Part shown: positions 534 through 59,783 of the stretch, in pieces | Numbering within the stretch: the first letter of the stretch is position 1 | Layout: each line of letters begins with the position of its first letter | Assembly (NCBI GenBank): GCA_022870705.1 | Contig: CP072107.1 | Span: 310,001 to 374,000 of the forward strand | Source: Oscillospiraceae bacterium CM | GTDB lineage: Bacteria > Bacillota > Clostridia > Oscillospirales > Oscillospiraceae | DNA length: 64,000 nt | Direction of reading: 5' to 3' | Made by a program: the position numbers and the translations under genes | Notes under the pieces: generated by a model | What the model saw: the letters and a program-made list of their open reading frames with translations, nothing else | What the model was told of the DNA's origin: nothing | Database searches by the model: none

Positions 534-869
534 TCACCGTGCAGGCTGTGAAGCCAACCCTATTCTGGTTTCTATTTCTTTCACATCTTCTGCGTCAAAT
601 CCGTCGCAATTGTACATAGACTGTGCTCGCGCCAACAGAAGAGAAAATTCTGTGCTAACCGTGTCATTCACCAGATCCTTGGCGGCGAAGGCATCCGCCG
701 CTACCTCTAAATCAAGAAGTGCGTTATTGGCGGCGTATAATCTGCATTCTTTGGCATACTCTTCTGACTGGGAATCAAAATGAAGATAATCATTGTTGAC
801 ATAGTGACCGATCTCGTGAAACAAAATCATCTTGGCTTCTGCTGAGCTCCGCTCACACTTTATTTTCAT
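534..869 (-). CDS. Short ImmA/IrrE-like zinc metallopeptidase
   Basis: A 111-residue protein with the HEIGH zinc motif at about residues 18-22 and a downstream EVAADAFAA, which matches the third-ligand region (E..AD.FA) of ImmA/IrrE peptidases. Family members typically cleave a partner XRE-type repressor and switch on a mobile element or stress response. This one is short and lacks the usual N-terminal helices, so it may be a minimal or reduced form. The start overlaps the stop of the GmrSD-like gene (ATGA), implying coupled translation. No XRE gene is adjacent; the nearest is at 13,781. Confidence 0.75.
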   Translation of the reverse strand: MKIKCERSSAEAKMILFHEIGHYVNNDYLHFDSQSEEYAKECRLYAANNALLDLEVAADAFAAKDLVNDTVSTEFSLLLARAQSMYNCDGFDAEDVKEIETRIGLASQPAR

Positions 870-2950
870 AGGCTCTTGGTTACCTTAGCACTGTACACGA
901 ACTCACTATGCTCAATGTCGTACTTATCGAGCAACGCGGCAATGATTCGAATAATGTGTGCAGCTGAGAAGCCAACATTCTGATAAATGTCTGTATCTTT
1001 AACCTTGTAATCTCCGTTCACATTGTCCGGGTTGTAAGAGAACATAATGTTTTGCGACCATGAGTTCAGTTTCTCATCATTTCGTGCCATCCCTTCGATG
1101 ATGCTGCTGTCAAGTTCATATAGTCGGTCAACAACAGAACGCAGCATTTCAGCGAAACTGGTCGAATTGACACGCTCACCAAGAAGAATATAGTAATTAG
1201 GGACTTTATATGTGGCTTCATCAGGTTCTTCACAGGTGTATTCCGCATACTTGGGGTCGGAAAAAGAAATAGCGACTGCGGGTGTTTCTATTGGGAACAG
1301 TCCAAGAACAAGCCCGGATAGGCGCTTTGCTCTTGCTTCTATGGCCGATGCATCCCAGCGGTCACAAGTCTTTACATCCTCATAAAGAGTCACCACTTTT
1401 GTTTGTACTTCTGCCAGTTTCTCTTTTTTCTCAGCAAAGGGCTTATCACCTAATTCCCCATTATAAGCAGTAAGCGTCAGATTGCCGAGTGTGTGCAGAT
1501 ATTTATCGTGGTCAGCCTCCCAGTTATCGCCAAGCATTTTCTGCCATGAGGTTGAGAGGTTACGGTTCTGCGGAAGAATATGCTCCACGGTAAGATTGTC
1601 GGTTAATAGCTGCTCCTTGCCCTGATTCTCAATTGCTGTCAGTAGATATTTGCACAGGGCGTTCTTGCGATAAAGGTTTTTCTGCTCTAAAGCCGTCCTA
1701 AACGCCGAATCTGCGGGCAACGTGTCTTTCGATGTGAGCTGCATCATAAAAGAAACAATCGCATCGTAATAGTGCTGCTTGTTCTCCGCTCTTGCGAATA
1801 CGCGCGCATAAAGGGTCTTATACAAACCACGCAGCGAGTTAGAGCCAATTTCACAGATCAGGCGTCGAATGCTGTAGTTCAACAGAAAACGCAATACCTT
1901 CTCAAGCACCTCTTGATCGATGATCTTGGCCTCGTAATCGTCAAAAACTCGAAACAGGAACAGAAAGACCGTTGTTTGCTTCAGCTTCTGCAAGTCAGCC
2001 AGAAGCGCATTGACAGCTTTCCCGTACTTGAGGTCTCCGTACAGGAATGCCTTGTAGTATTTTGCGTAATGGAAGATCTCATCCAGCATTTTCTTATTCG
2101 TGAACGTGCCGTCAGTATATACGGCCTTGAACACATCATAGGCTTCATCCTCGCGCGGAAAGCCGTCAACCTTCAGGTTCAAATAATTGATGAAGAAAGG
2201 CGCCATATTCTCTCGGCGAACGGCTTCCTCGGTGGGAAGCCAATATTCCTCGTATAGCTTTTCCTGATCGGCGTCGGTCATCAGCACATAGTTTCGGATC
2301 TTGTCGGCCAGCCCCAACGGGATACCGGTAGAATTGATGCGCTCAAAGATCTCCTGCGCGTTGTCATCAGCGTCCAACAGAATGCTGGCACAGGTCAGCT
2401 TTTCCAAACCCTTGTAAATTTCCTTTACATACATGCCGGCTTCGAGCTGTTCTTTTATGAGTCTACAGAACAGATCATAGTTGCGCCATATTCCGCTGGT
2501 GATATCGACCTCATCCGTTTTTTCGTCCATCATAAGAAAAAGTTGACGGTTATCGCTTTTTATGGGTTTGAGCTTCAGCTTACTGGCAACATCGACATCA
2601 TATGTATTGAACTTGTCCTTATTAAAAAGTGCTTCCTTCATGGCATCACGTTCGGCGTCAGACTCCGCCATATCAAGCAGGGCTTTGATTAGGATATATA
2701 CTGTCGTCAGTCGCTGCTGGCCGTCGATAATGACATAGTAGTGGATATTGTGTTCTTCCTTCAAAGGCGCATAAACCACGGACCCGCAGAAGTGGGTCTT
2801 GTCCTCTTTATATGCCTTCACAATATCCTCGAACAGCTTGACGCATTGCTCCCTTGACCATTCGTAGTTGCGTTGGTAAACGGGGATAGCGTATTGCCTT
2901 TTATTGGGCTCTATGAAATCATTGATTATTCTGCCTGGTCCGATCTTCAT
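866..2950 (-). CDS. GmrSD-like DUF262/DUF1524 nuclease
   Basis: A 694-residue protein. The N-terminal DUF262 (ParB/Srx-like) domain shows YAIPVYQRNYEW near residue 20 and IIDGQQRLTTV near 75, the NTP-binding and nickase region of GmrS. A DUF1524 HNH domain follows, with EHILPQN near residue 455 and TLGNLTL about 30 residues later. The last 150 residues form an extra domain that I do not recognise. GmrSD-type (type IV) enzymes cut DNA carrying modified cytosines, so this fits the type I restriction locus it is cotranscribed with. It starts 11 bp after the small gene and overlaps the ImmA-like gene by 4 bp. Confidence 0.88.
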   Translation of the reverse strand: MKIGPGRIINDFIEPNKRQYAIPVYQRNYEWSREQCVKLFEDIVKAYKEDKTHFCGSVVYAPLKEEHNIHYYVIIDGQQRLTTVYILIKALLDMAESDAERDAMKEALFNKDKFNTYDVDVASKLKLKPIKSDNRQLFLMMDEKTDEVDITSGIWRNYDLFCRLIKEQLEAGMYVKEIYKGLEKLTCASILLDADDNAQEIFERINSTGIPLGLADKIRNYVLMTDADQEKLYEEYWLPTEEAVRRENMAPFFINYLNLKVDGFPREDEAYDVFKAVYTDGTFTNKKMLDEIFHYAKYYKAFLYGDLKYGKAVNALLADLQKLKQTTVFLFLFRVFDDYEAKIIDQEVLEKVLRFLLNYSIRRLICEIGSNSLRGLYKTLYARVFARAENKQHYYDAIVSFMMQLTSKDTLPADSAFRTALEQKNLYRKNALCKYLLTAIENQGKEQLLTDNLTVEHILPQNRNLSTSWQKMLGDNWEADHDKYLHTLGNLTLTAYNGELGDKPFAEKKEKLAEVQTKVVTLYEDVKTCDRWDASAIEARAKRLSGLVLGLFPIETPAVAISFSDPKYAEYTCEEPDEATYKVPNYYILLGERVNSTSFAEMLRSVVDRLYELDSSIIEGMARNDEKLNSWSQNIMFSYNPDNVNGDYKVKDTDIYQNVGFSAAHIIRIIAALLDKYDIEHSEFVYSAKVTKSL

Positions 2951-4271: not shown

Positions 4272-7200
4272 TCAATTTGCATATTTTTTGAAGTTCTCTG
4301 CCTGTTCCAAAACTTCCTTGTAGACATCATCCAGTGTTACCGGGGGGTATCCGAACTCATCCAGCAAAAGAATCAGGTCGACTTGAAGGTTGGCTTTAAT
4401 ATCTTCTCGGGTAGACCAGTCTGTATACTTTGATTTGTCATCGACGATCAGCTTGATGCGTTTGGACAACTCTATCATTTTGTCGTCAGGATACCCGAAT
4501 TCGTATTTTCTTGCGACGGCTTTCAGAATGTCGTAAAACGCCTTTTCCTCGAAATCTATGCCCATTTTCTTGAAGGACTCTTTCTCACCCTTCAATTCCT
4601 CAAGCAGCTTGGCAAGCTGCTCAGCGACATCATCTAAAACTTCATTCGCATAAGCCTCATCGCGCCGCCTATTGTTATACTCGTCAATAACGTGTTTGAG
4701 ACGGTCAGCAAACTCAATGCCCATAATCTTGTTGACCTTCTTGAACTCATCAATCGCTTGCGTAAGAAGACGCTGCAATATCTTAATCTTTGTGTTGGGA
4801 AGCTGGATGGCATTAATCTTGTCCATATACTCATCGCTGAAAATATCGACAGAGATGTGTTTCCCCGTTTCAAAGAGTTCTTCGATGCCGTCAGACTGTA
4901 TTGCACCCTCAAGCAGTTCTCTGACACGGGCATTCATCTGTGCAATATCAGGCGCATCTCCCCGTGTGAGCTTAAACAGGATAGAGCGAACCGCGCAGTA
5001 GAAATGGATGTAGCTCTTTTCCTCGTCTGAAATCTTCTCGCTTGAGCTGCAAAGGTTGAAGGCTTGCTTCATTCTTTTCACAGCCGCCATGAAACGAGTC
5101 TCCAACTCTTCTGAGAGCTGGACATACTCGACGGCTCTGTTCAGGCAATGAAGCTGTTCTTTCGGTGTGCCATTGAAAAAGTCTGAGCTGTTGAAGATAT
5201 GGAACATTTGCGCCAGAACTTCAAGCTGATCCTTGACAATGGTGATGGATTGCTCTATTTCCTCAAACTCATCAGTCTCGAAGTTGGTGTACTTCTTGAG
5301 AGCAAGATTCATATTCTTCTTGATGCCGATGTAGTCTACAATTAAGCCCTTGTCCTTTCCCTCATAAACACGATTTACGCGAGAAATGGTCTGGATAAGG
5401 GAATGTTGCTGAATCGGCTTGTCAATGTATATGGTATCCAAAGAAGGTACATCGAAGCCGGTCAACCACATATCAACGACTATGGCAATCTTGAAGTTTG
5501 ATTTGATGTTCTTGAATTGCCGGTCAAACTCTTTGCGGTCATCCTTTGTTCCGAGTATGTCAAAGAGTTCTTTTTCATCGTCCTTGTTTCGCGTCATGAC
5601 CAGCTTTATCATTTCAATGGGCTTGAGTTCCTTTTTGTTCTTTTCGCTCAGCTCAACTCCATCAGCGCAAATCTTCTTCTTAGCCCATGCAGGACGCAGC
5701 TCTATGATGATCTTGTAGAGCGCAAAAGCAATGTTCCGGTTGGAACAGACAAACATTGCTTTACCGGCGACAGTAGCACCCTCTGCGACTCTTGTTTCAT
5801 AATGTTTTATGAAGTCTTCGGCAACAGCATGAAGACGGTCAGGATCTCCGATAATCATGTCGATATGAGCGACGGCTTTTTGGCTTTCCTCTATCTGATA
5901 CTCATTTGCGCCTTCAATCTCACATTTGGCGTAATAATCCTCAATCTCCTTGACTTTCTGCTGATTGAGCGTTACCCTCGCAGCGCGTCCGTCGTAGACA
6001 AGGTTTACGGTTATTCCATCCCGGACGGATTCGGTCATGGTGTATGCGTCAACTATGCCGCCGAATACCTCAATCGTTCCATCGACAGGTGTGCCGGTGA
6101 AGCCGACATAAGTAGCATTCGGCAGAGAATCATGCAGGTACTTGGCGAACCCATAGGTGCGTTCCACACCTTCCGCCGTGACGCGGACTTTTTGATCAAG
6201 ATTGATCTGGCTGCGATGGGCTTCATCAGAGATACAGATGACGTTTGTTCTATCCGTTAGTAGGCTCAGGTCTTCGGTGAATTTCTGTATGGTCGTCAAG
6301 TAGACCCCGCCGCTTGTCCTGCCTTGCAGTTCTTGGCGAAGGCGCTCACGGGAGTCGATGCTGACAACGGTTTCGTCACCTATGTATTTCTTTGAGGACA
6401 CAAACTGCTTTGAGAGCTGATCGTCAAGGTCAGTTCTGTCCGTGATTACAAGTATTGTCGGGCTGCGGAAGTGGGTATCCTTCATCAGACGCCGGGTGAG
6501 GAAAAGCATGGTATAGCTCTTACCACAACCGGTAGCTCCGAAATACGTGCCGCCTTTACCGTCGCCATCAGGACGTAGATGCGTCTTGATGTTTTCAAAC
6601 AGTTTGTTGGCAGCAAAGAACTGCGGATAGCGGCAGACCACCTTGAGGTCTTTATCTGAGCTATCGGGGAAATACACGAAGTCCTTGATTACGGAGAGCA
6701 AGCGTTCTTTGCGAAACATGCCCTTGACCATCGTGACAAGAGAGCTGATGCCATCAAGGTCTTTATCCTCGGACTCGACCTTGCGCCAAGCATAGAAGAA
6801 GTCATACGGGCTGAAAAATGAGCCGTACTTATTGTTTGCTCCGTCGCTGATGACGATGAAGGCATTGTATTTGAACAGCTCAGGAATATCCCGGCGATAC
6901 CGGACAGTGAGCTGCGTGTATGCGTCCATGATTGTTGTGTTCTCTTTGACGGCGCTCTTAAACTCAAGCACGACAACAGGAATGCCGTTGATGAACATGA
7001 TGCCGTCAGGAATGCGCAACTGATTGTTGATGCCCTCGATCTCAAACTGATTGACCACTTTGAAGCTGTTGTTTTCGGGAGTGTCGAAATCAATCAGTTC
7101 AATATATAGGTCTTTTTGGGTGCGATCCTCACGATTGAGGATAAAGCCATCGCATATCATCTTGGAGACAGCCTTGTTCGCCTCATAGATCGTGCCGGAA

Positions 7201-7415
7201 ATGCCGCGCAGCATAAGAAGGATGCTTTCCACCTCACTTGGTGTAATACCATCCTGTGCATAGCGGTTATAGAGATACTGCTTCAAGTCATCAGCAAGCA
7301 GCACCTCAGTCCTCTCTCTATGGATTTGTTCGCCGTTCAGGTAAGTGTATTCTTCATCCTTGAACAGCTCCATGATAGACATTTCCAATGCGTGTTCGTT
7401 GAATAACGACATCAT
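4272..7415 (-). CDS. hsdR: Type I restriction enzyme HsdR
   Basis: The motor and nuclease subunit of a type I restriction enzyme. About 1047 residues, normal for the family. The N-terminal nuclease region contains VVVLEFKSA near residue 150 (the D/ExK half of the catalytic motif). The helicase has Walker A GATGCGKS near 297, the Walker B box SDEAHRSQ near 395, and QTISRVNRVYEGK near 685 as motif VI. I took the ATG at 7415 because AAAGGAG lies just upstream; a GTG at 7421 is also in frame. It is read in the same direction as hsdM and both hsdS genes, and lies downstream of the switchable locus. Confidence 0.96.
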   Translation of the reverse strand: MMSLFNEHALEMSIMELFKDEEYTYLNGEQIHRERTEVLLADDLKQYLYNRYAQDGITPSEVESILLMLRGISGTIYEANKAVSKMICDGFILNREDRTQKDLYIELIDFDTPENNSFKVVNQFEIEGINNQLRIPDGIMFINGIPVVVLEFKSAVKENTTIMDAYTQLTVRYRRDIPELFKYNAFIVISDGANNKYGSFFSPYDFFYAWRKVESEDKDLDGISSLVTMVKGMFRKERLLSVIKDFVYFPDSSDKDLKVVCRYPQFFAANKLFENIKTHLRPDGDGKGGTYFGATGCGKSYTMLFLTRRLMKDTHFRSPTILVITDRTDLDDQLSKQFVSSKKYIGDETVVSIDSRERLRQELQGRTSGGVYLTTIQKFTEDLSLLTDRTNVICISDEAHRSQINLDQKVRVTAEGVERTYGFAKYLHDSLPNATYVGFTGTPVDGTIEVFGGIVDAYTMTESVRDGITVNLVYDGRAARVTLNQQKVKEIEDYYAKCEIEGANEYQIEESQKAVAHIDMIIGDPDRLHAVAEDFIKHYETRVAEGATVAGKAMFVCSNRNIAFALYKIIIELRPAWAKKKICADGVELSEKNKKELKPIEMIKLVMTRNKDDEKELFDILGTKDDRKEFDRQFKNIKSNFKIAIVVDMWLTGFDVPSLDTIYIDKPIQQHSLIQTISRVNRVYEGKDKGLIVDYIGIKKNMNLALKKYTNFETDEFEEIEQSITIVKDQLEVLAQMFHIFNSSDFFNGTPKEQLHCLNRAVEYVQLSEELETRFMAAVKRMKQAFNLCSSSEKISDEEKSYIHFYCAVRSILFKLTRGDAPDIAQMNARVRELLEGAIQSDGIEELFETGKHISVDIFSDEYMDKINAIQLPNTKIKILQRLLTQAIDEFKKVNKIMGIEFADRLKHVIDEYNNRRRDEAYANEVLDDVAEQLAKLLEELKGEKESFKKMGIDFEEKAFYDILKAVARKYEFGYPDDKMIELSKRIKLIVDDKSKYTDWSTREDIKANLQVDLILLLDEFGYPPVTLDDVYKEVLEQAENFKKYAN

Positions 7416-7513
7416 GTTCACTCCTTTAGCTGTCTCTCTGGAAGCATCTCTGCCTCATGAGATAATGATACTATACTTTCGCCCCTTTTGGTCGCCGCGC
7501 TTGCGACATCGGC

Positions 7514-7536
7514 GATAAATGATAATTTAGCGGCTT
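7514..7536. repeat. hsdS inversion site A
   Basis: A copy of the hsdS repeat (core TAAATGATAATTTAG on the plus strand) immediately after the stop codon of the intact hsdS. It is identical over 23 nt to site D in opposite orientation and over 20 nt to site B in opposite orientation. In the orientation that would follow inversion, it would encode NLAA followed by a stop. Confidence 0.88.
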
Positions 7537-8662
7537 AGCATGCAACTATGCTTATTCGTCTCACAAGCTGATCCCTTGTATCGAATAAGCTGTTAATCTC
7601 CTTGAGATTATTATATATCTCATAAAATATTGGCTGCGCTTTACAGTTAAATTGCTCAGCAATCTCAGAACTGAAAGGAAGAGTGAGACGCTTGAGGTCT
7701 TTAACTGTGACATGCCCCAACCCGGTTGTTTGCTTACCCATTGCCGCTTTCACGAACTCAGGTTTGCAATACTTGAGCATGAAAAAGGTAAACGCTTCAC
7801 CATATTGACACTCCATCTTGAAGGTGTGCTGATTCAAAATGCTACCTCCATGACTCCAAATGAAAGCGTCAATAGAAGTGTCCGGGTTTCCTGACCATGA
7901 GAATAAAACATCCTTGTCCCTAATCATGTATTTGCCGTCCTTTGACCCTGTGAAATACTGAGTTGCCGACGTTACGCCGTCTTTAAGCTCAGCAATCTTG
8001 ATTATTGGCAAGCCGGTTTCGGAATACTCTTCTTCTGAGAAGGACGTTCCGTTAATATATCCCGCCAATTCATATAGGGGCGTATTGACCAGCTCATCGG
8101 AAGTAACGTAAAAATGCGCCTTGAACATGGCAAGTCCAATCTCCGCTAAATTATCATTTATCTTTTGCTTTAACTCGATCCGATCAGTGATAGTCTGATA
8201 TGCTTTCACAATCGCTTTCTGCCTGTCAATAGGGGGAATGGGCAGTTCAACCTTGCACATCTCATCCCAGTCCATGACCTCGCGGACACTACCATGAGAT
8301 TTGAAACGAGCGTATCTGTCAAACTCCGGGCGGCTGAACCAAAGCATAAGGTAATCCGGCAAGAGCTGAGTTTCATCTATCACTTCAAAGACGGTGTAGA
8401 TGTTGCTGACTAATCCCTCGTCGTACTCAGAGAGAAGGGCTATGCCAATCTTATCCCCACGCCGAGATGTGTCGGGAATGTAGGTGAACTGACCTCTCTT
8501 CACGACTTTATACTTAGTGAAGTCCGTACCCACTGTATTTGCAATAGAAGGAATGAACTTCTTTTGTACGGAAACACCGAGAAGATTGTCTTCTCGACCA
8601 TCCGTATTTCGCACGTCTACTTGACGAATATAGCCGCCAAGCAATTTGTCCCCGTCTTTCAT
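7535..8662 (-). CDS. hsdS: Type I specificity subunit HsdS, intact copy
   Basis: A 375-residue specificity subunit with two target recognition domains. The first spans about residues 1-150, followed by the conserved helical spacer ITDRIELKQKINDNLAEIG. The second is about residues 190-350, followed by the C-terminal helix. Each DNA-recognition domain reads half of a bipartite site. The segment encoding KINDNLA is inversion site B, and the gene ends at site A, so the second recognition domain is bracketed by an inverted repeat. A GAGGTGG ribosome binding site precedes the ATG, 9 bp after the recombinase gene. This copy looks functional in the present orientation. Confidence 0.94.
   Translation of the reverse strand: MKDGDKLLGGYIRQVDVRNTDGREDNLLGVSVQKKFIPSIANTVGTDFTKYKVVKRGQFTYIPDTSRRGDKIGIALLSEYDEGLVSNIYTVFEVIDETQLLPDYLMLWFSRPEFDRYARFKSHGSVREVMDWDEMCKVELPIPPIDRQKAIVKAYQTITDRIELKQKINDNLAEIGLAMFKAHFYVTSDELVNTPLYELAGYINGTSFSEEEYSETGLPIIKIAELKDGVTSATQYFTGSKDGKYMIRDKDVLFSWSGNPDTSIDAFIWSHGGSILNQHTFKMECQYGEAFTFFMLKYCKPEFVKAAMGKQTTGLGHVTVKDLKRLTLPFSSEIAEQFNCKAQPIFYEIYNNLKEINSLFDTRDQLVRRISIVAC
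8143..8162. repeat. hsdS inversion site B
   Basis: The sequence ccgctaaattatcatttatc within the intact hsdS, encoding the spacer peptide INDNLA on the minus strand. It is the exact reverse complement of site A (20/20) and has the same orientation as site D. It lies at the border between the two recognition domains. Confidence 0.88.
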
Positions 8663-8671
8663 CTTGCCACC

Positions 8672-9652
8672 TCAGCCAATGAATTTTCTATGCGCCAGCT
8701 TTACGTTCTGCTGCTTGACCATTGCATAGTGCATGGTCGTATCGATCTTTTGATGCCCTAAGAGCTGCTGGACTTGCTCGATGGGCATTCCTTTGTCTAT
8801 GGCTGTCGTAGCCAGTGTTCGCCGGAACTTGTGAGGATGTACCTTTGGCATATTGAGACTTTTTCCCAGCTCGCGCAGCCTTGTTTCTACGCCTCCGATC
8901 ATGAGCCTTTCATGAGGCGCATTCAAAGAGACAAATAAAGCTGGGTTGCTGTCCGTCCGGCTGTTCAGGTAGTCTTGCAAGTGGATCTTCGTCCTGGCAT
9001 CGAAGTACACGAGCCGTTCCTTATTTCCCTTGCCAAAGACTACGCATTCACGCTCTGCGAAGTTGATGTCCTCACGGTTGAGAGTGACCATTTCGCCGAC
9101 GCGCATACCGGATGATGCAAGCAGATCAATGATTGCCAAGTCTCTCTCGGTGGTGGAGTGATCCCGCATAAGCTCCAAAGCTTCATCCGTGTAGGTGTCC
9201 TTGACCATTTTGCCGGTCTTGACCTTGTGTATCCTGCGTACAGGACTTTTCACAATGAAATCCTCATCCTCAAGCCAAGAAAAGAAGCTGGACAGGATGC
9301 GCCGGATGTTATCAATCGTCACCTTGCTCGACTTGCGGCGGCATTGATATTCAGTAAGATACCTTCTGAGGTCTTCCGTCATGATCCGCTGCGGGGGCTT
9401 GCCTATATCTGAAACCATTGCCTCAATCGTGTTGAGGTAGTAGTTCAGCGTCTTCTCTGAGCATCCTTCTATCCTCTTAGCCGAGATGAATGCCTCAATA
9501 GCTTTATCCTCGGATGGAGTATGGCACTCTTCCGCGCTGATGTTCAAGCCGCTTAACGTCTTTGATAGAACGTCCTGAAGCCTCAGCAGTTGCTCGTTGT
9601 TGAGATAGGGCAGCATTTGCCTTTCAATCTCATTGATCAGTTCTTCCTTCAT
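8672..9652 (-). CDS. Tyrosine recombinase, likely HsdS invertase
   Basis: A 326-residue XerC/D-like recombinase. A SAM-like core-binding domain covers about residues 50-135. The catalytic domain has ASSGMRVGEM (first Arg, near 176), HPHKFRRTLA (HxxR, near 270) and LLGHQKIDTTMHYA ending in the nucleophile Tyr near 310. It lies between two hsdS loci bordered by inverted repeats, the arrangement known from phase-variable type I systems in streptococci and Bacteroides, so it is the obvious candidate to drive inversion. Its start is preceded by AAAGGAGA. An imperfect palindrome at about 9711-9731 lies in its leader. Confidence 0.92.
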   Translation of the reverse strand: MKEELINEIERQMLPYLNNEQLLRLQDVLSKTLSGLNISAEECHTPSEDKAIEAFISAKRIEGCSEKTLNYYLNTIEAMVSDIGKPPQRIMTEDLRRYLTEYQCRRKSSKVTIDNIRRILSSFFSWLEDEDFIVKSPVRRIHKVKTGKMVKDTYTDEALELMRDHSTTERDLAIIDLLASSGMRVGEMVTLNREDINFAERECVVFGKGNKERLVYFDARTKIHLQDYLNSRTDSNPALFVSLNAPHERLMIGGVETRLRELGKSLNMPKVHPHKFRRTLATTAIDKGMPIEQVQQLLGHQKIDTTMHYAMVKQQNVKLAHRKFIG

Positions 9653-9710
9653 CGTCGTGTCTCCTTTGTATTCAAGAGAACGACTTTCAGTGGCAGTCCC
9701 TTTGTGATAA

Positions 9711-9731
9711 CTCTCGCCACTGGTGAGAGTC
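9711..9731. repeat. Imperfect palindrome upstream of recombinase
   Basis: A 21-nt near-palindrome with outer arms ACTCTC and GAGAGT, lying between the recombinase start and inversion site C. It could be an accessory or regulatory site for the recombinase; this is inferred from symmetry and position only. Confidence 0.35.
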
Positions 9732-9735
9732 TGAG

Positions 9736-10392
9736 GTAAATGATAATTTAGTTGACTCTCTATGCACCGTTTATCGTGAACGGTTTTACGGTGAGCAAGA
9801 CTCTTTCGAGAAGCACGCTCTCAAAGAATTGTGCAGCAAAATCGGAAGCGGGGCAACACCTAAAGGTGGAAAACAAGGGTATTCCGAATCAGGCATATCT
9901 TTGATTCGTAGCACAAACGTATTAGATTACTCATTTTCGTATTCTGACCTTGCTCATATTTCTGATGAACAAGCAGATGTCCTTTTGAATGTGGAAGTCT
10001 CTGCTCATGATGTTTTGTTCAACATCACTGGGGTATCGGTTGCCCGATGCTGTATGGTTCCAGAGGATGTATTGCCAGCGCGAGTTAATCAGCATGTCAT
10101 GATAGTTCGTCCGATTCAGGGCTGTGAAATGAGCTATTACATAATGTGTACGCTTTGTTCCACAGATTACAAGGCGCGGTTGCTGGGAATAGGTCAATCC
10201 GGTTCGACGCGAGAGGCGATAAACAAACAAGAGCTTGAATCATTTGTTATTCCCGTTCCAAGCATCAATGATATTAAGTCATTTGGGCGCTTAGCTGACA
10301 GCCTCTATAAAGAGATCGCCAAGAACAACAATGAGATTAGGGCTTTGAATGACATGCAAAGTGTGCTGTTATCCAACCTCTCAAGCCGCTAA
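9736..10392 (+). pseudogene. hsdS: Inverted, headless hsdS second-half cassette
   Basis: The open frame begins inside site C as VNDNLVDSLC and runs to a stop inside site D. It encodes the second target recognition domain and C-terminal helix of an HsdS (GSGATPKGGK near its start; NEIRALNDMQSVLLSNLSSR at the end). It has no proper start, and it points against every other gene of the operon. If 9737-10405 were inverted, the codons AAT GAT AAT TTA of the two repeats would join in frame, extending the upstream half-gene into a full HsdS of about 385 residues. I therefore read it as a stored cassette, not a decayed gene. Confidence 0.88.
9737..9751. repeat. hsdS inversion site C
   Basis: A 15-nt copy of the shared core TAAATGATAATTTAG, in the same orientation as site A and opposite to sites B and D. 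It marks the 5' border of the silent second-half cassette. The flanks differ from the other three copies, so 15 nt may be close to the minimal crossover core. Confidence 0.82.
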
Positions 10393-10905
10393 ATTATCAT
10401 TTATCTTCCGTTTAAGCTCAATCCTTTCCGTAATAGCCTTGTAGCTCTGAACAATTCGCATTTGTTCATCGTAAGGAAGAACCGGCACCTCAATTCTGCA
10501 AAAATCGTCCCATGTAATGCCGCCTCTTACGCTGCCATCGGTCTTGAGCCAGCACATGCGATCGAACTCTGGGCGGCGAAACCACATCATCAGGAATTCG
10601 TCGTTCATCACCGACTTGTCTGTTATCTCAAATATGAAGTAAGCGGGTGACACAATAGCCGGTGAGCTTTCCGTATAGAGTGCAACAGGCAAGCGTTCAT
10701 CGCGTCCAACGTGCATAGGATTACAAGCAAAGCGTCCCTGTGTAATCAGCTTGTACTTGCTCAAATCTGTTCCAATCACATTGGCGACTGACGGCATAAA
10801 GAATTTGTCGATGTTAATACCCAATACTCGGTCTGACAGCATTGCGCCGTTTCGCTCATCAACAAGCTGGATGTGATTGCCCAAGAGGTCATAGTTCGAT
10901 TTCAT
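10381..10905 (-). CDS. hsdS: HsdS first half, truncated by inversion
   Basis: 174 residues containing only the first target recognition domain and the spacer ITERIELKRKINDNLAA, then a stop just beyond site D. It is aligned colinearly with the first half of the intact copy (IGTDLSKYK / IGTDFTKYK-like, W..RPEFDR), but its recognition sequence is clearly different. The ATG overlaps the end of hsdM by 17 nt and uses an AAGGAG inside hsdM, so this is the primary expression position for specificity. In the present state it makes a half-subunit, which might pair as a dimer or be inactive. Confidence 0.9.
   Translation of the reverse strand: MKSNYDLLGNHIQLVDERNGAMLSDRVLGINIDKFFMPSVANVIGTDLSKYKLITQGRFACNPMHVGRDERLPVALYTESSPAIVSPAYFIFEITDKSVMNDEFLMMWFRRPEFDRMCWLKTDGSVRGGITWDDFCRIEVPVLPYDEQMRIVQSYKAITERIELKRKINDNLAA
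10383..10405. repeat. hsdS inversion site D
   Basis: A copy in the orientation of site B. It contains the stop codon of the plus-strand cassette and also codes for INDNLAA of the minus-strand half-gene. It is identical over 23 nt to site A in opposite orientation. Confidence 0.88.
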
Positions 10906-12460
10906 ATCCCAGCTCCTTAAATACTGTCAGCAACGATGCTTTTGATGCTTCCTCCGCGACAAGAAGTTCTTTTAATTCTGCTTGCAGCGACTTCATCTTT
11001 GTATCAAAGTCGATGTTCTCATCACGGTTGATGAACTCGATATAACGGCTCGGAACAAGCGTAAATCCCTTTTCTTTTACCTCATCAAAGGAAGCACTGT
11101 GGCAGAACTCAGGAACATCCTTATATGTTTCCTCAAAGCCTTCCTGCTGCCAGCTATGGTACACCGCAGTTACCTTTGCACGATCCTCTTCCGTCAGCTC
11201 AATGTATTTCTTTTCAAACGGGCTGCCCATCTGCCGCAAGTCCATGAAGAGGATTTCCTTTTCTCTGTTGCGGTAGCGTTTCGTCTGCCCGTTCTGCTCG
11301 ACGACACGAGCCTTCTTGTTCTTGTTCAGGATCCAAAGCGTTACACTGATGTCGGTGGTATAGAACAAGCTGCGAGGAAGAATAACGATTGCTTCTACAA
11401 GGTTGTTCTCGATAAGCTGCTTTCTGACTTTCAGTTCAGTCCCATCGTCAGACAGTGCGCCGTTGGCAAGCAGGAAACCGGCAACACCGTTTTGAGACAG
11501 CTTCGACACGATGTTCAGAATCCACCCGTAGTTCGCATTGCTTGTCGGAGGAACTTCGTAGCCGTTCCAGCGCGGATCGTCAATAAGCTCATTATCGGCT
11601 CTCCATTCTTTCTGATTGAAAGGCGGATTCGCCATTATAAAGTCTGCCTTGAGGTCTTTATGCTGGTCGTTTGAAAAAGTGTTTGCAGCCATCTCTCCGA
11701 GGTTTGCAGATATGCCTCGAATTGCCAAGTTCATCTTCGCCAGCTTGTAGGTCGTGTTGGTATACTCCTGACCATAGATGGACACTTTTCTCTTGTTACC
11801 GCTGTGAGCCTCAACAAAGCGGATGGACTGGACAAACATGCCGCCTGAGCCGCAGCAGGGATCGTAGAGTACGCCATCGTAAGGCTCAATCATTTCGGCA
11901 ATCAGATTGACGATGCACTTGGGCGTATAGAATTCGCCCTTGCCTTTACCTTCTGCAAGGGCAAACTTTCCGAGAAAGTATTCGTAGACCCGCCCGATTA
12001 TATCGTTCTCTTTGTCGCTGGTGTTGATCTTATCAACCTCATCGAGCAGAGATGCAAGCTTCGTAGTATCTATGTGAAGGCGCGAGTAGTAGTTGTCGGG
12101 AAGAGCGCCCTTCAAAGCAGGATTGACCTTTTCAATCGTAAAGAGCGCCGTATCAATCTTGAGCGCAATGTCGTCCTGTTTTGCGTTCTCCATGATGAAT
12201 GACCAACGGCTTTCAGGCGGAAGATAGAACACATTGTCCTGCGTATAGAAGGCTATACGGTCAACGTGTTTTTCACCATATTTTTCGGTGATGATTCTTC
12301 GCTGCGCTTCAAACTTATCACTTGCAAACTTTAGAAAGAACAAACTCAGAACAACATGCTTATACTCTGCTGGCTCAACAGACCCTCGCAGCTTGTCCGC
12401 AGATTTCCATAGAGCTTCTTCCATAGAGGCTTCTTTTTTTTGCTTTATTGCTTTTGCCAT
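10889..12460 (-). CDS. hsdM: Type I DNA methyltransferase HsdM
   Basis: The N6-adenine methyltransferase subunit, 523 residues. An N-terminal helical HsdM_N domain covers about residues 8-140. The catalytic domain follows, with GEFYTPKCIV near 180, the SAM-binding YDPCCGSGGMF near 205 and the catalytic IMANPPFN near 280. With two HsdS subunits it modifies the host site; with HsdR it restricts foreign DNA. It is first in the restriction genes, downstream of the riboswitch and the HTH gene, and overlaps the switchable hsdS. The start has a GGGGG-type ribosome binding site. Confidence 0.97.
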   Translation of the reverse strand: MAKAIKQKKEASMEEALWKSADKLRGSVEPAEYKHVVLSLFFLKFASDKFEAQRRIITEKYGEKHVDRIAFYTQDNVFYLPPESRWSFIMENAKQDDIALKIDTALFTIEKVNPALKGALPDNYYSRLHIDTTKLASLLDEVDKINTSDKENDIIGRVYEYFLGKFALAEGKGKGEFYTPKCIVNLIAEMIEPYDGVLYDPCCGSGGMFVQSIRFVEAHSGNKRKVSIYGQEYTNTTYKLAKMNLAIRGISANLGEMAANTFSNDQHKDLKADFIMANPPFNQKEWRADNELIDDPRWNGYEVPPTSNANYGWILNIVSKLSQNGVAGFLLANGALSDDGTELKVRKQLIENNLVEAIVILPRSLFYTTDISVTLWILNKNKKARVVEQNGQTKRYRNREKEILFMDLRQMGSPFEKKYIELTEEDRAKVTAVYHSWQQEGFEETYKDVPEFCHSASFDEVKEKGFTLVPSRYIEFINRDENIDFDTKMKSLQAELKELLVAEEASKASLLTVFKELGYEIEL

Positions 12461-12557: not shown

Positions 12558-12752
12558 CTAATCGCCAAATTGCCTTTTTCGTTCTTTCCTGGCATCCGCA
12601 GGTTTTTCTGCATCTTTGGGGATAGCCCACGCTTTCCCGAACTTTGTTAGTCCGGGGATTCTGTCCGTATTGCACAACACTTGAACGCGGCGGCGGGTAA
12701 TTCCCCATCTTTTTGCGGCCTCGGCGATAGAAATGTAATCCATACTGTTCAC
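12558..12752 (-). CDS. Small HTH DNA-binding protein (excisionase-like)
   Basis: A 64-residue protein with a single MerR/excisionase-type helix-turn-helix: ISIAEAAKRWGITRRRVQVL near residues 7-26, then a short wing and a basic tail ending ADARKERKRQFGD. Proteins of this kind act as recombination directionality factors or small regulators. The longer frame starting at 12762 is in another phase and is a shadow. The gene lies directly downstream of a cyclic-di-GMP riboswitch with a terminator, and 98 bp upstream of hsdM, so it could connect c-di-GMP to recombination or to restriction gene expression. Confidence 0.78.
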   Translation of the reverse strand: MNSMDYISIAEAAKRWGITRRRVQVLCNTDRIPGLTKFGKAWAIPKDAEKPADARKERKRQFGD

Positions 12753-12794: not shown

Positions 12795-12799
12795 TTCCA

Positions 12800-12880
12800 T
12801 TTATAGCTGGCTGCCATCCAAACGGTACAGGCCCTTGTAGCTTTGCGCCGCCGTCTTTCGACGGTTTTGCCAAAAATACG
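12800..12880 (-). promoter_or_regulatory. Cyclic-di-GMP-I (GEMM) riboswitch aptamer
   Basis: On the minus strand the characteristic pieces occur in order: GGCAAAACC, a stem ACCGTC-GAAA-GACGG with GNRA tetraloop, GCGCAAAGCTAC, GGGCCT, then ATGGCAGCCAGCTA as the tetraloop-receptor side. These match what I know of the class-I c-di-GMP riboswitch. A terminator hairpin follows within 10 nt and a good promoter precedes it. It probably controls read-through into the 64-residue HTH gene, and possibly hsdM. Whether binding turns expression on or off cannot be read by eye. Confidence 0.87.
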
Positions 12881-12890
12881 ATTTTTAATT

Positions 12891-14290: not shown

Positions 14291-15601
14291 TTAGAAAAGC
14301 TCTCGCATATCATAAATATAGGCAAGCTCCGGATATCTGATCCAGCTTTGTCCACAGCTTAGTTCTGCGATAAGATTAGCCGATGCCGACAGTAGGTAGC
14401 TTTGTGCTCGTTTTGCCTTTTCAAGCACTTCTTTCAAATGAGTAACTTGTAACATGGCAGTTTTCTTGGAGCGTGTCCACTTTGATATTTCACGCTGCAA
14501 AATACGCTGATCCCTTGCTACAACCATCGTGGGATTTTTTATGATTTTCTGTGCTACTTCCCGTTTCCGTGCATTAGCAGCTCTTGCTTTGCTGCTTTTC
14601 TCCGCTGCCGCATTGAGCCGTGCCGTTACTAAGGTCCCAATCGGCATAAGCTCTGTCGCTTTGATGCCGTAGTAGTTGTCCATAGGGTAAATCCCGGTGG
14701 TAATGTATGTATAGTATTCAGACGGTGTCAGTCCCGCAAGGGCATATTGATAGTGCTCATCATTGTAAGCGCCTATGTAGCCGGTAACCATGCGTTTGGC
14801 AGTCTCCGCATCCGGGCAGAGTGCTATTAAATCGAGCATCTCGCATTTCATTCGACCGAAGAATGATTCCATGGGTGCGTTGTCCTGCGAATTTCCCCTG
14901 CCGGAAACAGATTGAACAAACCCATCGTCTGTTAGCAGTGTCTGAAAGGTTGTGGAAAGATATTGAGACCCCTGGTCGCTGTGGATCACGCATTGGGCGT
15001 CATGCAATTCTTTGCCATGCTTCTCCATCATGGCGTTGTAAGCATTTTTCACAAGCTCTACTGTCATACGGGTGTCAATATCGTGCCCAAGAATTTCTTT
15101 CGTGTAAGCATCTCTAAAGGCGCAAAGATAGATGGGTGTGCGAGCAAAACCATAGTAGAGATAGGTAATATCGGTCAAGATGACTTTTCGAGGGCCAATG
15201 TAGAAGTTTTGATTTACCCTATTTTCCGGGGAGGCACACTCGTGATCATGGGTTGCCTGATGCTTGTAGGCATCCTTTTTTGGTTTGTTTGCCGCAAGGT
15301 TCATTTCTTTCATGAGCGTCCGGCAACGCTTCACGCTGATGCTGATATTGAAATCCCGCCACATATAGGTCTGAAAAGTCCGCTTTCCCGGGACAAAGCC
15401 CAATTTTCTCACGATTTGCCGAAACTTCTCTTTTAATTCATTTCGGCTTTCCTGTTTTGCCACGCGGGAACCCTTCGTATCTTTCTGACGTTCAATCCAT
15501 GAATAGTAGCCGGAACGTGACACGCCAAACATACACAGGCACTGCGTAGTGGACAAGCCGTCCTTTTTCCCAGCTTGCCGACCAATAAAAGCGTCTGCCA
15601 T
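14291..15601 (-). CDS. IS3-type DDE transposase with C-terminal extension
   Basis: 436 residues. After a short helical region with SRSGYYSWIERQ near residue 30 comes the HTH_21-like segment, then the rve catalytic core. Candidate DDE residues are in ILTDITYL near 142, VIHSDQGSQYLS near 208 and NAPMESFFGRMK near 244. About 130 basic, lysine-rich residues follow the usual end of an IS3 OrfB (YNDEHYQYALAGLTPSEYY), which is unusual and may be a DNA-binding tail. It is third in the unit, 17 bp after the 148-residue gene. Confidence 0.88.
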   Translation of the reverse strand: MADAFIGRQAGKKDGLSTTQCLCMFGVSRSGYYSWIERQKDTKGSRVAKQESRNELKEKFRQIVRKLGFVPGKRTFQTYMWRDFNISISVKRCRTLMKEMNLAANKPKKDAYKHQATHDHECASPENRVNQNFYIGPRKVILTDITYLYYGFARTPIYLCAFRDAYTKEILGHDIDTRMTVELVKNAYNAMMEKHGKELHDAQCVIHSDQGSQYLSTTFQTLLTDDGFVQSVSGRGNSQDNAPMESFFGRMKCEMLDLIALCPDAETAKRMVTGYIGAYNDEHYQYALAGLTPSEYYTYITTGIYPMDNYYGIKATELMPIGTLVTARLNAAAEKSSKARAANARKREVAQKIIKNPTMVVARDQRILQREISKWTRSKKTAMLQVTHLKEVLEKAKRAQSYLLSASANLIAELSCGQSWIRYPELAYIYDMRELF

Positions 15602-15618
15602 TTGAAATCTGTCTGCAT

Positions 15619-16065
15619 TTACGTTTTCGGATTCGATGATATAGTCATGTCCGCCAATGCGGATTGGAGTTTTTTTTGAGCAGAAACCAGCTCCTCTAAA
15701 TAGAAGTTTCTTGCCTTTAAGTAAGCCAATTCTTCCAATGGAGACATAGCTCCCATGGCCTCTCTGGGTACGGAGCCATCGTAGCTGGAAGGGTTTACGG
15801 TAAACAGCCGTTCCTCACGAGCCATCTGCATCGCACGTTTTCCCGCTGAATTGGCTCGATCCTCTCCAAGGACAGCGGTGGAAAAGCCGAGACTGTTATA
15901 TGCCGCCACGTAGGTCATGTGTTCCTCGGATATTTTTTTATACATGGCCACGTAAAAATCCTTTGTGTAGATCATATCGCGGCCTCTAAAGTCCTTCAAG
16001 AATGGATTGTCCAGAAATGGTCTAATCTCATCTGAAGGCTGTTTTCTTATCTGATTTTGTTTCAT
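15619..16065 (-). CDS. Transposon-associated small protein (OrfA-like?)
   Basis: 148 residues, charged and helical. The middle reads as a possible HTH (MTYVAAYNSLGFSTAVLGED) and the end as a coiled-coil-like stretch (SPLEELAYLKARNFYLEELV) that recalls the leucine zipper of IS3 OrfA proteins. It is placed directly before an OrfB-like transposase, but there is no frameshift overlap. It may supply DNA binding for the 436-residue transposase. Confidence 0.65.
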   Translation of the reverse strand: MKQNQIRKQPSDEIRPFLDNPFLKDFRGRDMIYTKDFYVAMYKKISEEHMTYVAAYNSLGFSTAVLGEDRANSAGKRAMQMAREERLFTVNPSSYDGSVPREAMGAMSPLEELAYLKARNFYLEELVSAQKKLQSALADMTISSNPKT

Positions 16066-58752: not shown

Positions 58753-59783
58753 TGAAAGACGAACGCTTTTTCAAAACAATTAAAAATTTTCTTGAGATAT
58801 ATTTACTCAAACAAAAAAACTACAGCAAAAATACGCAAAAATCCTATCGGGAATCATTGAGTCTCCTGCTTCAATATTTTAAGGAAGAACTTGGCCTTGG
58901 GTATGCTCAGATAGGTTTCGATGATCTGACTTATACAAATGTCTGCGGCTTTTTGGATTGGCTCACAGTTTCGCGGGAATGCTCACCTCAAACTGTAAAT
59001 CTGCGCTTGATGGCGATCCGCTCTTTTGCGAAATATTCAAGCATTGTCGATCCGGCAAAGGTCTATTTCCAGGTCGAGTTAGCAAACGTACCCGTTAAAA
59101 AAGCCCACGGTAAGGTAGTGGAATTCATGAGTTTGCCTGCTCTCGAAGCATTATTTCTGCAACCTAACACTAAGAATACAACAGGTTTTCGGGATTTTTG
59201 TTTTATGATTTTAATGTATGACGTTGCCGCACGGTGTCAGGAACTGTTGGATTTGCGGATTGGCGATTTGGAATTGCAGCAAAATACCCCGTCTGTTTAT
59301 CTTACAGGTAAAGGGACTAAAATGCGAAAACTACCAATTTCGACCAAAGTTGCTGGGCACCTGAAGAATTACCTTAATACAGCTCATCCTGCAATATCAA
59401 GGAAAGATGAGGATTTTCTGTTCTACACAATTTCTCATGGCCACAGAAACAAAATGTCTTCGGATGCCGTTTCTCTGTTTATGCGTAAATACGGAGAGAC
59501 CGGTAAAAAAATGTGCTCAGAGATTCCGGATAGAGTTCACCCACACCAGCTACGCCATTCCAGAGCGATGCACTTGTATCGGGGCGGCATGCCTTTGGTT
59601 TTACTTTCTGAGTTTCTCGGACATGCCGATGTAAACACTACTCGGATCTATGCCTGGGCCGATACTGAAATGAAAAGGCAAGCCATACAAAAAATTACGG
59701 ATAAATGTGAAGCCAATGCTACAATCGAGCCGATTTGGGAAAATGACGAGCAGATGATCAAGCGTTTGTATGGTCTTGCATAG
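58746..59783 (+). CDS. Tyrosine recombinase, intact, at right end
   Basis: 345 residues. The core-binding domain spans about residues 20-115 (YSKNTQKSYRESLSLLLQYF). The catalytic domain has DVAARCQELLDLRIGDL, HPHQLRHSRAMHLYRG and FLGHADVNTTRIYAWADTE with the nucleophilic Tyr. It is 57 bp inside the right terminal repeat, together with the truncated partner. It is the best candidate to move the 29.5-kb element. Confidence 0.93.
   Translation: MLMKDERFFKTIKNFLEIYLLKQKNYSKNTQKSYRESLSLLLQYFKEELGLGYAQIGFDDLTYTNVCGFLDWLTVSRECSPQTVNLRLMAIRSFAKYSSIVDPAKVYFQVELANVPVKKAHGKVVEFMSLPALEALFLQPNTKNTTGFRDFCFMILMYDVAARCQELLDLRIGDLELQQNTPSVYLTGKGTKMRKLPISTKVAGHLKNYLNTAHPAISRKDEDFLFYTISHGHRNKMSSDAVSLFMRKYGETGKKMCSEIPDRVHPHQLRHSRAMHLYRGGMPLVLLSEFLGHADVNTTRIYAWADTEMKRQAIQKITDKCEANATIEPIWENDEQMIKRLYGLA

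Follow-up and report, generated by a model that had tools for sequence, protein, structure and literature searches.

Several type I restriction-modification systems are known in which a recombinase shuffles the specificity gene, hsdS, among them SpnD39III/cod with PsrA, those of Streptococcus suis, Listeria monocytogenes and Enterococcus faecalis, and SpnIV (PMC7394358, PMC7096588, PMC6265443). Systems that invert duplicated hsdS genes (Atack et al. 2020, PMC7394358) combine hsdR, hsdM and hsdS with an additional hsdS copy; short inverted repeats lie between the target recognition domains (TRDs), a tyrosine recombinase is encoded at the locus, and the TRDs are shuffled. Only the hsdM-adjacent hsdS is described as functional in them, and the silent copy examined lies on the opposite strand without start codon and promoter (PMC7394358, PMC7096588); this holds for the examples examined in PMC7394358 and does not strictly define such systems. 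At the SpnIV tvr locus (PMC6265443), a recombinase sits between hsdS parts, TRD segments are mobile and an RNA structure limits recombinase expression; direct repeats, circular intermediates, a toxin-antitoxin pair and a transcriptional attenuator are its own. Here we describe a locus that has these general traits in common with both kinds. It lies in a 64,000-nucleotide stretch of the genome of the gut bacterium Oscillospiraceae bacterium CM (contig CP072107.1, positions 310,001 to 374,000; hereafter the window) and is a complete type I restriction-modification operon consisting of hsdM, hsdS1, a recombinase gene, hsdS2 and hsdR. We propose, with a probability of roughly 0.85, that its specificity is switched by the tyrosine recombinase acting at four short sites.

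Coordinates and strands are positions in the window. On the minus strand the order is hsdM, the first half of hsdS1 (OFF), an inverted cassette X, the recombinase, hsdS2 (ON) and hsdR, with the four sites, A to D, at the borders of the hsdS halves. Sites D and B, the first-half sites, are also labelled S1N and S2N, and C and A, the flank sites, P and Q.

4272..7421, minus: hsdR, type I restriction subunit, 1049 amino acids, GTG start (Pfam HSDR_N, SWI2_SNF2 and T1RH-like_C; PADLOC REase_I, E=0)
7514-7530, plus: site A (survey name Q), core
7514..8162, minus: invertible cassette Y (TRD2a), start end B, stop end A, now in the ON orientation
7535..8662, minus: hsdS2, intact, 375 amino acids, TRD1b first half up to site B and cassette Y as second half (Pfam Methylase_S in two stretches; PADLOC 2e-49)
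8146-8162, minus: site B, core
8672..9652, minus: tyrosine recombinase, 326 amino acids, XerC-like, Phage_int_SAM and Phage_integrase (Pfam 2e-31)
9735-9751, plus: site C (survey name P), core with one mismatch, GG for GA
9735..10405, plus: invertible cassette X (TRD2c and C-terminal region), start end C, stop end D, now antisense to hsdS1
10381..10905, minus: hsdS1 first half (TRD1a and central helix), OFF, 174 amino acids, ending INDNLAA* (PADLOC Specificity_I, 4e-31)
10389-10405, minus: site D, core
10889..12460, minus: hsdM, type I DNA methyltransferase, 523 amino acids (Pfam N6_Mtase 6e-100 and HsdM_N; PADLOC MTase_I)

The 17-bp core, GATAAATGATAATTTAG, occurs in just these four copies in the whole genome of 2,185,546 bases, where a control pattern gave 0 matches. 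Identity extends to 23 bp between A and D and to 20 bp between A and B, because A and D both carry the stop end (GCGGCTT) and the core-adjacent CGG is common to A and B, while C agrees with each of the other sites at 16 of the 17 core bases. The first halves of hsdS1 and hsdS2 both have ATG starts and both lie on the hsdM strand, the intact copy being the one distal to hsdM. The hsdS1 reading frame ends directly past site D as ...KINDNLAA*, and the second half in cassette X forms an open plus-strand frame from C to 10392 (217 codons). Residues R184, H274, R277, H300 and Y309 of the recombinase are invariant in an alignment of seven sequences and fit the R..H-x-x-R..H..Y pattern of tyrosine recombinases with a Phage_integrase fold, and its NCBIfam score falls under the XerC and XerD cut-offs and over that of NF040815. 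An earlier sequence-only reading of this stretch had described four repeat copies bordering hsdS half-genes, with A and C opposed to B and D, an intact hsdS whose second half lies between A and B, another hsdS stopped at D with its second half on the opposite strand between C and D, and a tyrosine recombinase gene in between; this anatomy holds throughout.

Each site marks the end of an hsdS central helix, and the two ends of a cassette differ: an hsdS is completed by the start end and cut short by the stop end. In the mechanism that we propose, either of the fixed first halves (TRD1a and TRD1b) can be joined to either of two mobile second-half cassettes (X and Y), which offers four possible specificities. 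At present TRD1b with Y is ON and TRD1a is OFF. Inversions carried out in silico are consistent with this scheme. Inverting C/D turns hsdS1 ON as a 385-residue open reading frame with the junction K[V/I]NDN-LVDSLC and 0 internal stops, which gives the open frame across the core (INDN + LVDSLC) that had been foreseen and leaves the inverted cassette free of in-frame stops. Inverting B/C joins TRD1b to cassette X (385 amino acids, plus strand), and inverting A/B turns hsdS2 OFF. Inverting A/D by itself leaves the hsdS products unchanged, because the right side of A is a stop end too. Four sites allow 16 linear states, eight of them tandem, with the recombinase on the hsdM strand, and eight convergent. 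Among the tandem states one gene is ON in 4, both in 2 and none in 2, and all 8 convergent states have exactly one ON. The four TRD1/TRD2 pairings are all reachable, as had been claimed for the A/B, C/D, A/D and B/C inversions, although A/D alone gives no new one and some need 2-4 inversions.

Scanning a public genome collection for the recombinase gave 80 related loci (62-83% identity), and GTDB genomes gave more. The arrangement of sites about the recombinase, plus and minus on one side and plus and minus on the other, is found in 70 loci, or 61 clusters at 97% recombinase DNA identity. Judged from record titles, many of them metagenome-assembled genomes, the four-site loci are distributed over Oscillospirales, Lachnospiraceae, lactobacilli, Spirochaetes, Proteobacteria and Bacteroidetes. 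Their hsdM genes fall into at least three groups, which are 80-90%, roughly 40% and roughly 20% identical to the hsdM of the window. The arrangement is therefore a widespread module and not a peculiarity of this genome; a pair of hsdS heads around the recombinase, which the sequence-only reading had thought worth describing, is common across phyla. In 52 of 52 tandem loci hsdM lies on the recombinase strand.

The cores of these relatives agree within a locus. In 39 of 39 tandem loci the four 12-mers are one and the same, whereas seven versions exist between loci, and when sites were shuffled among loci at most 6 loci were coherent; the site pattern used here tolerates one mismatch to the commonest form of the locus. 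The versions vary just centrally (TGAT, CGAT, CAAT, CAAG and others) between the constant arms TAAA and ATTTA. Since AAT and AAC are synonymous, this coherence acts on the DNA, and a tyrosine recombinase whose overlap is short requires just that. Two natural pairs of loci record the exchange itself. The flanks of L035 and L036 are 99.85-100% identical, and a 675-bp cassette that occupies the first slot in one is found inverted in the second slot of the other; the breakpoints fall at the cores. In L040 and L181, whose flanks are 94-96% identical, a 687-bp cassette has 100% identity but the opposite orientation, turned in place exactly between cores. Together these rearrangements make inversion at the core sites in nature, as read from sequence comparison, well supported.

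Two points weigh against a switch that operates here. The evidence for inversion comes from comparison between strains, and site C has one mismatch in its core. Both would suit a static locus, in which remnants of an hsdS duplication persist without present recombination. Such a remnant is very improbable, however, given an intact recombinase with invariant catalytic residues, an intact frame in the C-D cassette, core spacers that agree within each locus and near-identical relatives that are rearranged at the cores. We infer that the recombinase also switches the locus in this strain, and the earlier description, a type I specificity locus that can invert and encodes a tyrosine recombinase, is well supported by its anatomy, by the four-site layout in about 70 loci and by natural pairs that differ in a cassette moved or inverted exactly at the cores.

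Other arrangements were encountered among the relatives. In L217 (2895-8114) and L052 (3588-11452) the unit of recombinase, hsdS2 and cassette is doubled in tandem, which insertion of an excised circle would produce, unless it is an assembly artefact. A third layout, seen in L085, L087, L091, L094, L101 and L129, mostly Bacteroidetes records, places several hsdS genes in a row behind the recombinase, and their cores are direct repeats. Direct cores suit excision, not inversion; a further type of core, AAATGAGAATTT, oriented the other way, is present in some of these loci. Carriage by phages or plasmids was considered and set aside: there is no close plasmid match, and a few human-faecal phage records hold recombinases of 60-70% identity.

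The states of the relatives follow a simple rule. Each distinct state was counted once per recombinase cluster, with clusters treated as independent and no tree-based correction. In the tandem layout 21 states are ON/OFF (upstream ON), 21 are OFF/ON (downstream ON), 1 has both OFF, 0 have both ON and 1 has a broken cassette (L170). Of the 43 tandem states that can be scored, 42 thus have exactly one intact hsdS, where independent flips would give 50% (p = 1e-11), and either copy can be the one that is ON. The combination of one ON and one OFF gene in this genome is therefore the normal condition; the sequence-only reading had taken it for a locus caught half-inverted, and that interpretation falls. 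Because nearly all tandem relatives have exactly one complete first half, the locus behaves as a one-at-a-time selector. Against the rule stand L219, in which both hsdS are OFF and the X and Y cassettes are identical, and L164 (5210-8146), in which both are OFF and the fourth site is lost. Since the 61 clusters give just these two, both-ON and both-OFF were rejected as ordinary states. L164 is apparently locked OFF.

The one-ON rule is a statistical regularity, and its cause may be either a restriction on site partners or selection. If partners are restricted, with the first-half sites recombining together and P recombining with Q, cassettes would be swapped between slots, for example by excision of a circle of recombinase, hsdS2 and cassette followed by reintegration, and one ON gene would be conserved automatically. 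Among the simple rules considered, this one accounts for both the one-ON tandem rule and the rarity of layout change. The duplicated units of L217 and L052 are the product of an exchange between the direct sites P and Q, unless they are assembly artefacts, and excision with reintegration is established at the pneumococcal SpnIV tvr locus (PMC6265443). On the other hand, the in-place inversion between L040 and L181 and the cassette start at a flank site in L035/L036 need an exchange of a first-half site with a flank site, unless these cassettes came from other strains. Enforcement by partner choice is thus possible, at somewhat less than even odds.

The convergent layout bears on the second cause. 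There one gene is ON in every orientation, and all four combinations of cassette orientation occur (9 unlike and 5 alike among loci with both first halves); single flips therefore do occur in this recombinase family, as the in-place flip between L040 and L181 also indicates. Cassettes might accordingly flip freely, with cells that hold zero or two intact hsdS lost or out-competed. Yet a both-ON state should not weaken defence and a both-OFF state should be easy to enter, and they number 0 and 1 of 43; we see no direct reason for selection against both-ON. We regard selection, too, as a tentative explanation that falls a little short of an even chance. A like-with-like rule, in which start ends exchange with start ends and stop ends with stop ends, was rejected: it fits L035/L036, not L040/L181, and it cannot yield the 21:21 split.

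In its OFF state hsdS1 continues for six codons inside the inverted cassette before it closes with -LAA, and a second such ending is latent in cassette Y.

10381..10392, minus: hsdS1 OFF tail TTA GCG GCT TGA, L A A stop, ssrA-like
7515..7538, plus: latent OFF tail ATA AAT GAT AAT TTA GCG GCT TAG (INDNLAA*), which joins hsdS2 if Y inverts and overlaps the hsdS2 sense stop

The OFF product would be a half-HsdS otherwise able to dimerise, and its ending may mark it for proteolysis as an ssrA tag does. Among 127 unique OFF ends of the inverted layouts, 72 end in AA and 25 in VA (97/127), compared with 0 of 125 ON C-termini of the same cassettes. Such endings arise in 0.6% of shuffles (maximum 4.4%) and in neither of the other two frames, controls for which 143 ends including direct arrays were taken, 98 of them AA/VA. 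The commonest OFF endings are LAA, the end of the ssrA tag, and LVA, one of the variants known for its final three residues (PMC9382460). The tag of the host's own transfer-messenger RNA (tmRNA), as read by eye in the sequence that Rfam matched, has PVAA at its end.

A by-product of a conserved stop-end DNA motif, or of coding on the sense strand, could give the same endings. The commonest form of the motif is GCGGCTTAG; tail codons overlap sense coding in 40 ends, and the A-to-V changes of the Bacteroidetes are synonymous when read in sense. Where Bacteroidetes have the convergent layout, the codons of the AA/VA tail lie across conserved sense codons (K-Q, Q-A-T), so that the tail might be a by-product in that group, which counts against a degron. 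The 20-residue Bacteroidetes tails were accordingly set aside, and neither they nor the NGQAT group are independent support, because sense codons could explain the ending. Where the sense strand is essentially non-coding, however, save for the stop overlap, AA/VA is still found in 57 of 75 ends, with variation mainly silent or between A and V at codon -2 (GCG, GCA, GCT, GTG, GTT, GTA). Tails of 7, 9 and 13 residues share the ending, ON C-termini never have it, and the host tag ends similarly; these points count against a by-product. The two explanations are finely poised: a by-product has nearly an even chance, and it is nearly an even bet that the OFF tail is an ssrA-like degron that targets the truncated half-subunit for proteolysis.

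Expression of the recombinase may itself be controlled, as its gene is preceded by a structured leader.

9650..9737, minus: recombinase mRNA leader of ~90 bases, an H-type pseudoknot followed by a hairpin that sequesters the Shine-Dalgarno (SD) sequence

Stem 1 of the pseudoknot pairs CTCTC with GAGAG, and its loop pairs downstream to form stem 2 (AGTGGC/GCCACT). Across 29 distinct sequences 94.3% of cells are paired and 12 of 22 pairs have changed on both sides, with 59 double-change cells against 17.7 in shuffles and at most 12 in slid controls; stem 2 occurs as AGTGGC/GCCACT, AACGGC/GCCGTT and GGTGG/CCACC. A covariance model of the leader matches window 9650-9742, its one match in this genome, and in related loci it matches directly before the recombinase (L025 5907-6003, L044 5903-6003, L057 5909-6003 and others). 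In a phylum-wide set of 328 genomes it matched in three: the present genome, a second in which it precedes a recombinase of 77% identity, and a third with a weak match that lacks a recombinase. Against Rfam 15 the leader had no family match at the gathering cut-off nor at E up to 1, and it is possibly a new RNA family. The covariation suggests that the leader is probably a riboregulator, in which pseudoknot and SD hairpin would limit translation of the recombinase.

Upstream of hsdM two further elements were found.

12558..12752, minus: small helix-turn-helix open reading frame upstream of hsdM, probably the first gene of the operon (domain by eye; no NCBIfam match)
12799..12881, minus: cyclic di-GMP-I riboswitch aptamer and terminator-like hairpin, sequence GCCCTACGCTTTGTAGGGCTGTTTTT, upstream of the helix-turn-helix frame and hsdM (Rfam RF01051, 51.4 bits; cut-off 35)

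In this genome cyclic di-GMP may thus control the whole restriction operon, including the recombinase. Riboswitch control was rejected as a trait of the family, the aptamer being missing from 11 related loci. Near hsdR, window 866-2950 (minus) encodes a 694-residue protein that matches the PADLOC models Orf5/HEC-06/SspE and may form a small defence island with the type I system. An IS3-like transposase pair, recognized by eye from translated reading frames, lies near the restriction operon at 14291-16065 (minus), and another tyrosine recombinase, a distant one with 33% identity across part of the query, lies at 59145-59672 (plus).

Taken together, the parts could describe a widespread one-of-four selector in which partner choice guarantees one intact HsdS, a built-in ssrA-like degron prevents a second (palindromic) specificity and a pseudoknot riboregulator sets the recombinase dose, though it is unlikely that this joint reading is right as a whole. 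If the one-ON rule and the OFF-tail degron are both true, restriction specificity would be shuffled without a second, unplanned enzyme made from half-subunits. The covarying leader is a concrete point of entry into the control of the switching rate.

Recombinase-driven shuffling of TRDs is, as the sequence-only reading had already said, known from other type I systems, and the novelty is in the family-wide rules, not in the single locus: two expressible first halves, movement of second halves only, the one-ON regularity, -LAA/-LVA OFF ends and the leader RNA. We found no published one-ON rule, OFF-tail degron or pseudoknot leader in a literature search that was thin in subscription papers, so that a prior description is possible. 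In the usual picture of phase-variable type I systems, one expressed hsdS is supplied by silent copies; this family has two heads that can be expressed and seems, as a rule, to use a single specificity at any time. Compared with the inverting systems, both first halves have start codons and lie on one strand, either can be ON, and only second halves move. The repeat measures 16-17 bp at some pairs, under the 20-bp limit of the published survey (PMC7394358), and the family, widespread in gut Firmicutes and Bacteroidetes, falls partly under that limit. Half-HsdS methyltransferases are represented by the engineered CC398 half-S (PMC6158711), whereas the truncated form here has an -LAA/-LVA end and is nearly always found beside an intact hsdS. 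C-terminal LAA is common to ssrA tags, but in this family the tail, a putative degron, is encoded in the inverted cassette and not added by tmRNA. Finally, in contrast to SpnIV tvr, a single core serves two direct and four inverted pairs of sites, and the predicted leader consists of a pseudoknot and an SD hairpin.

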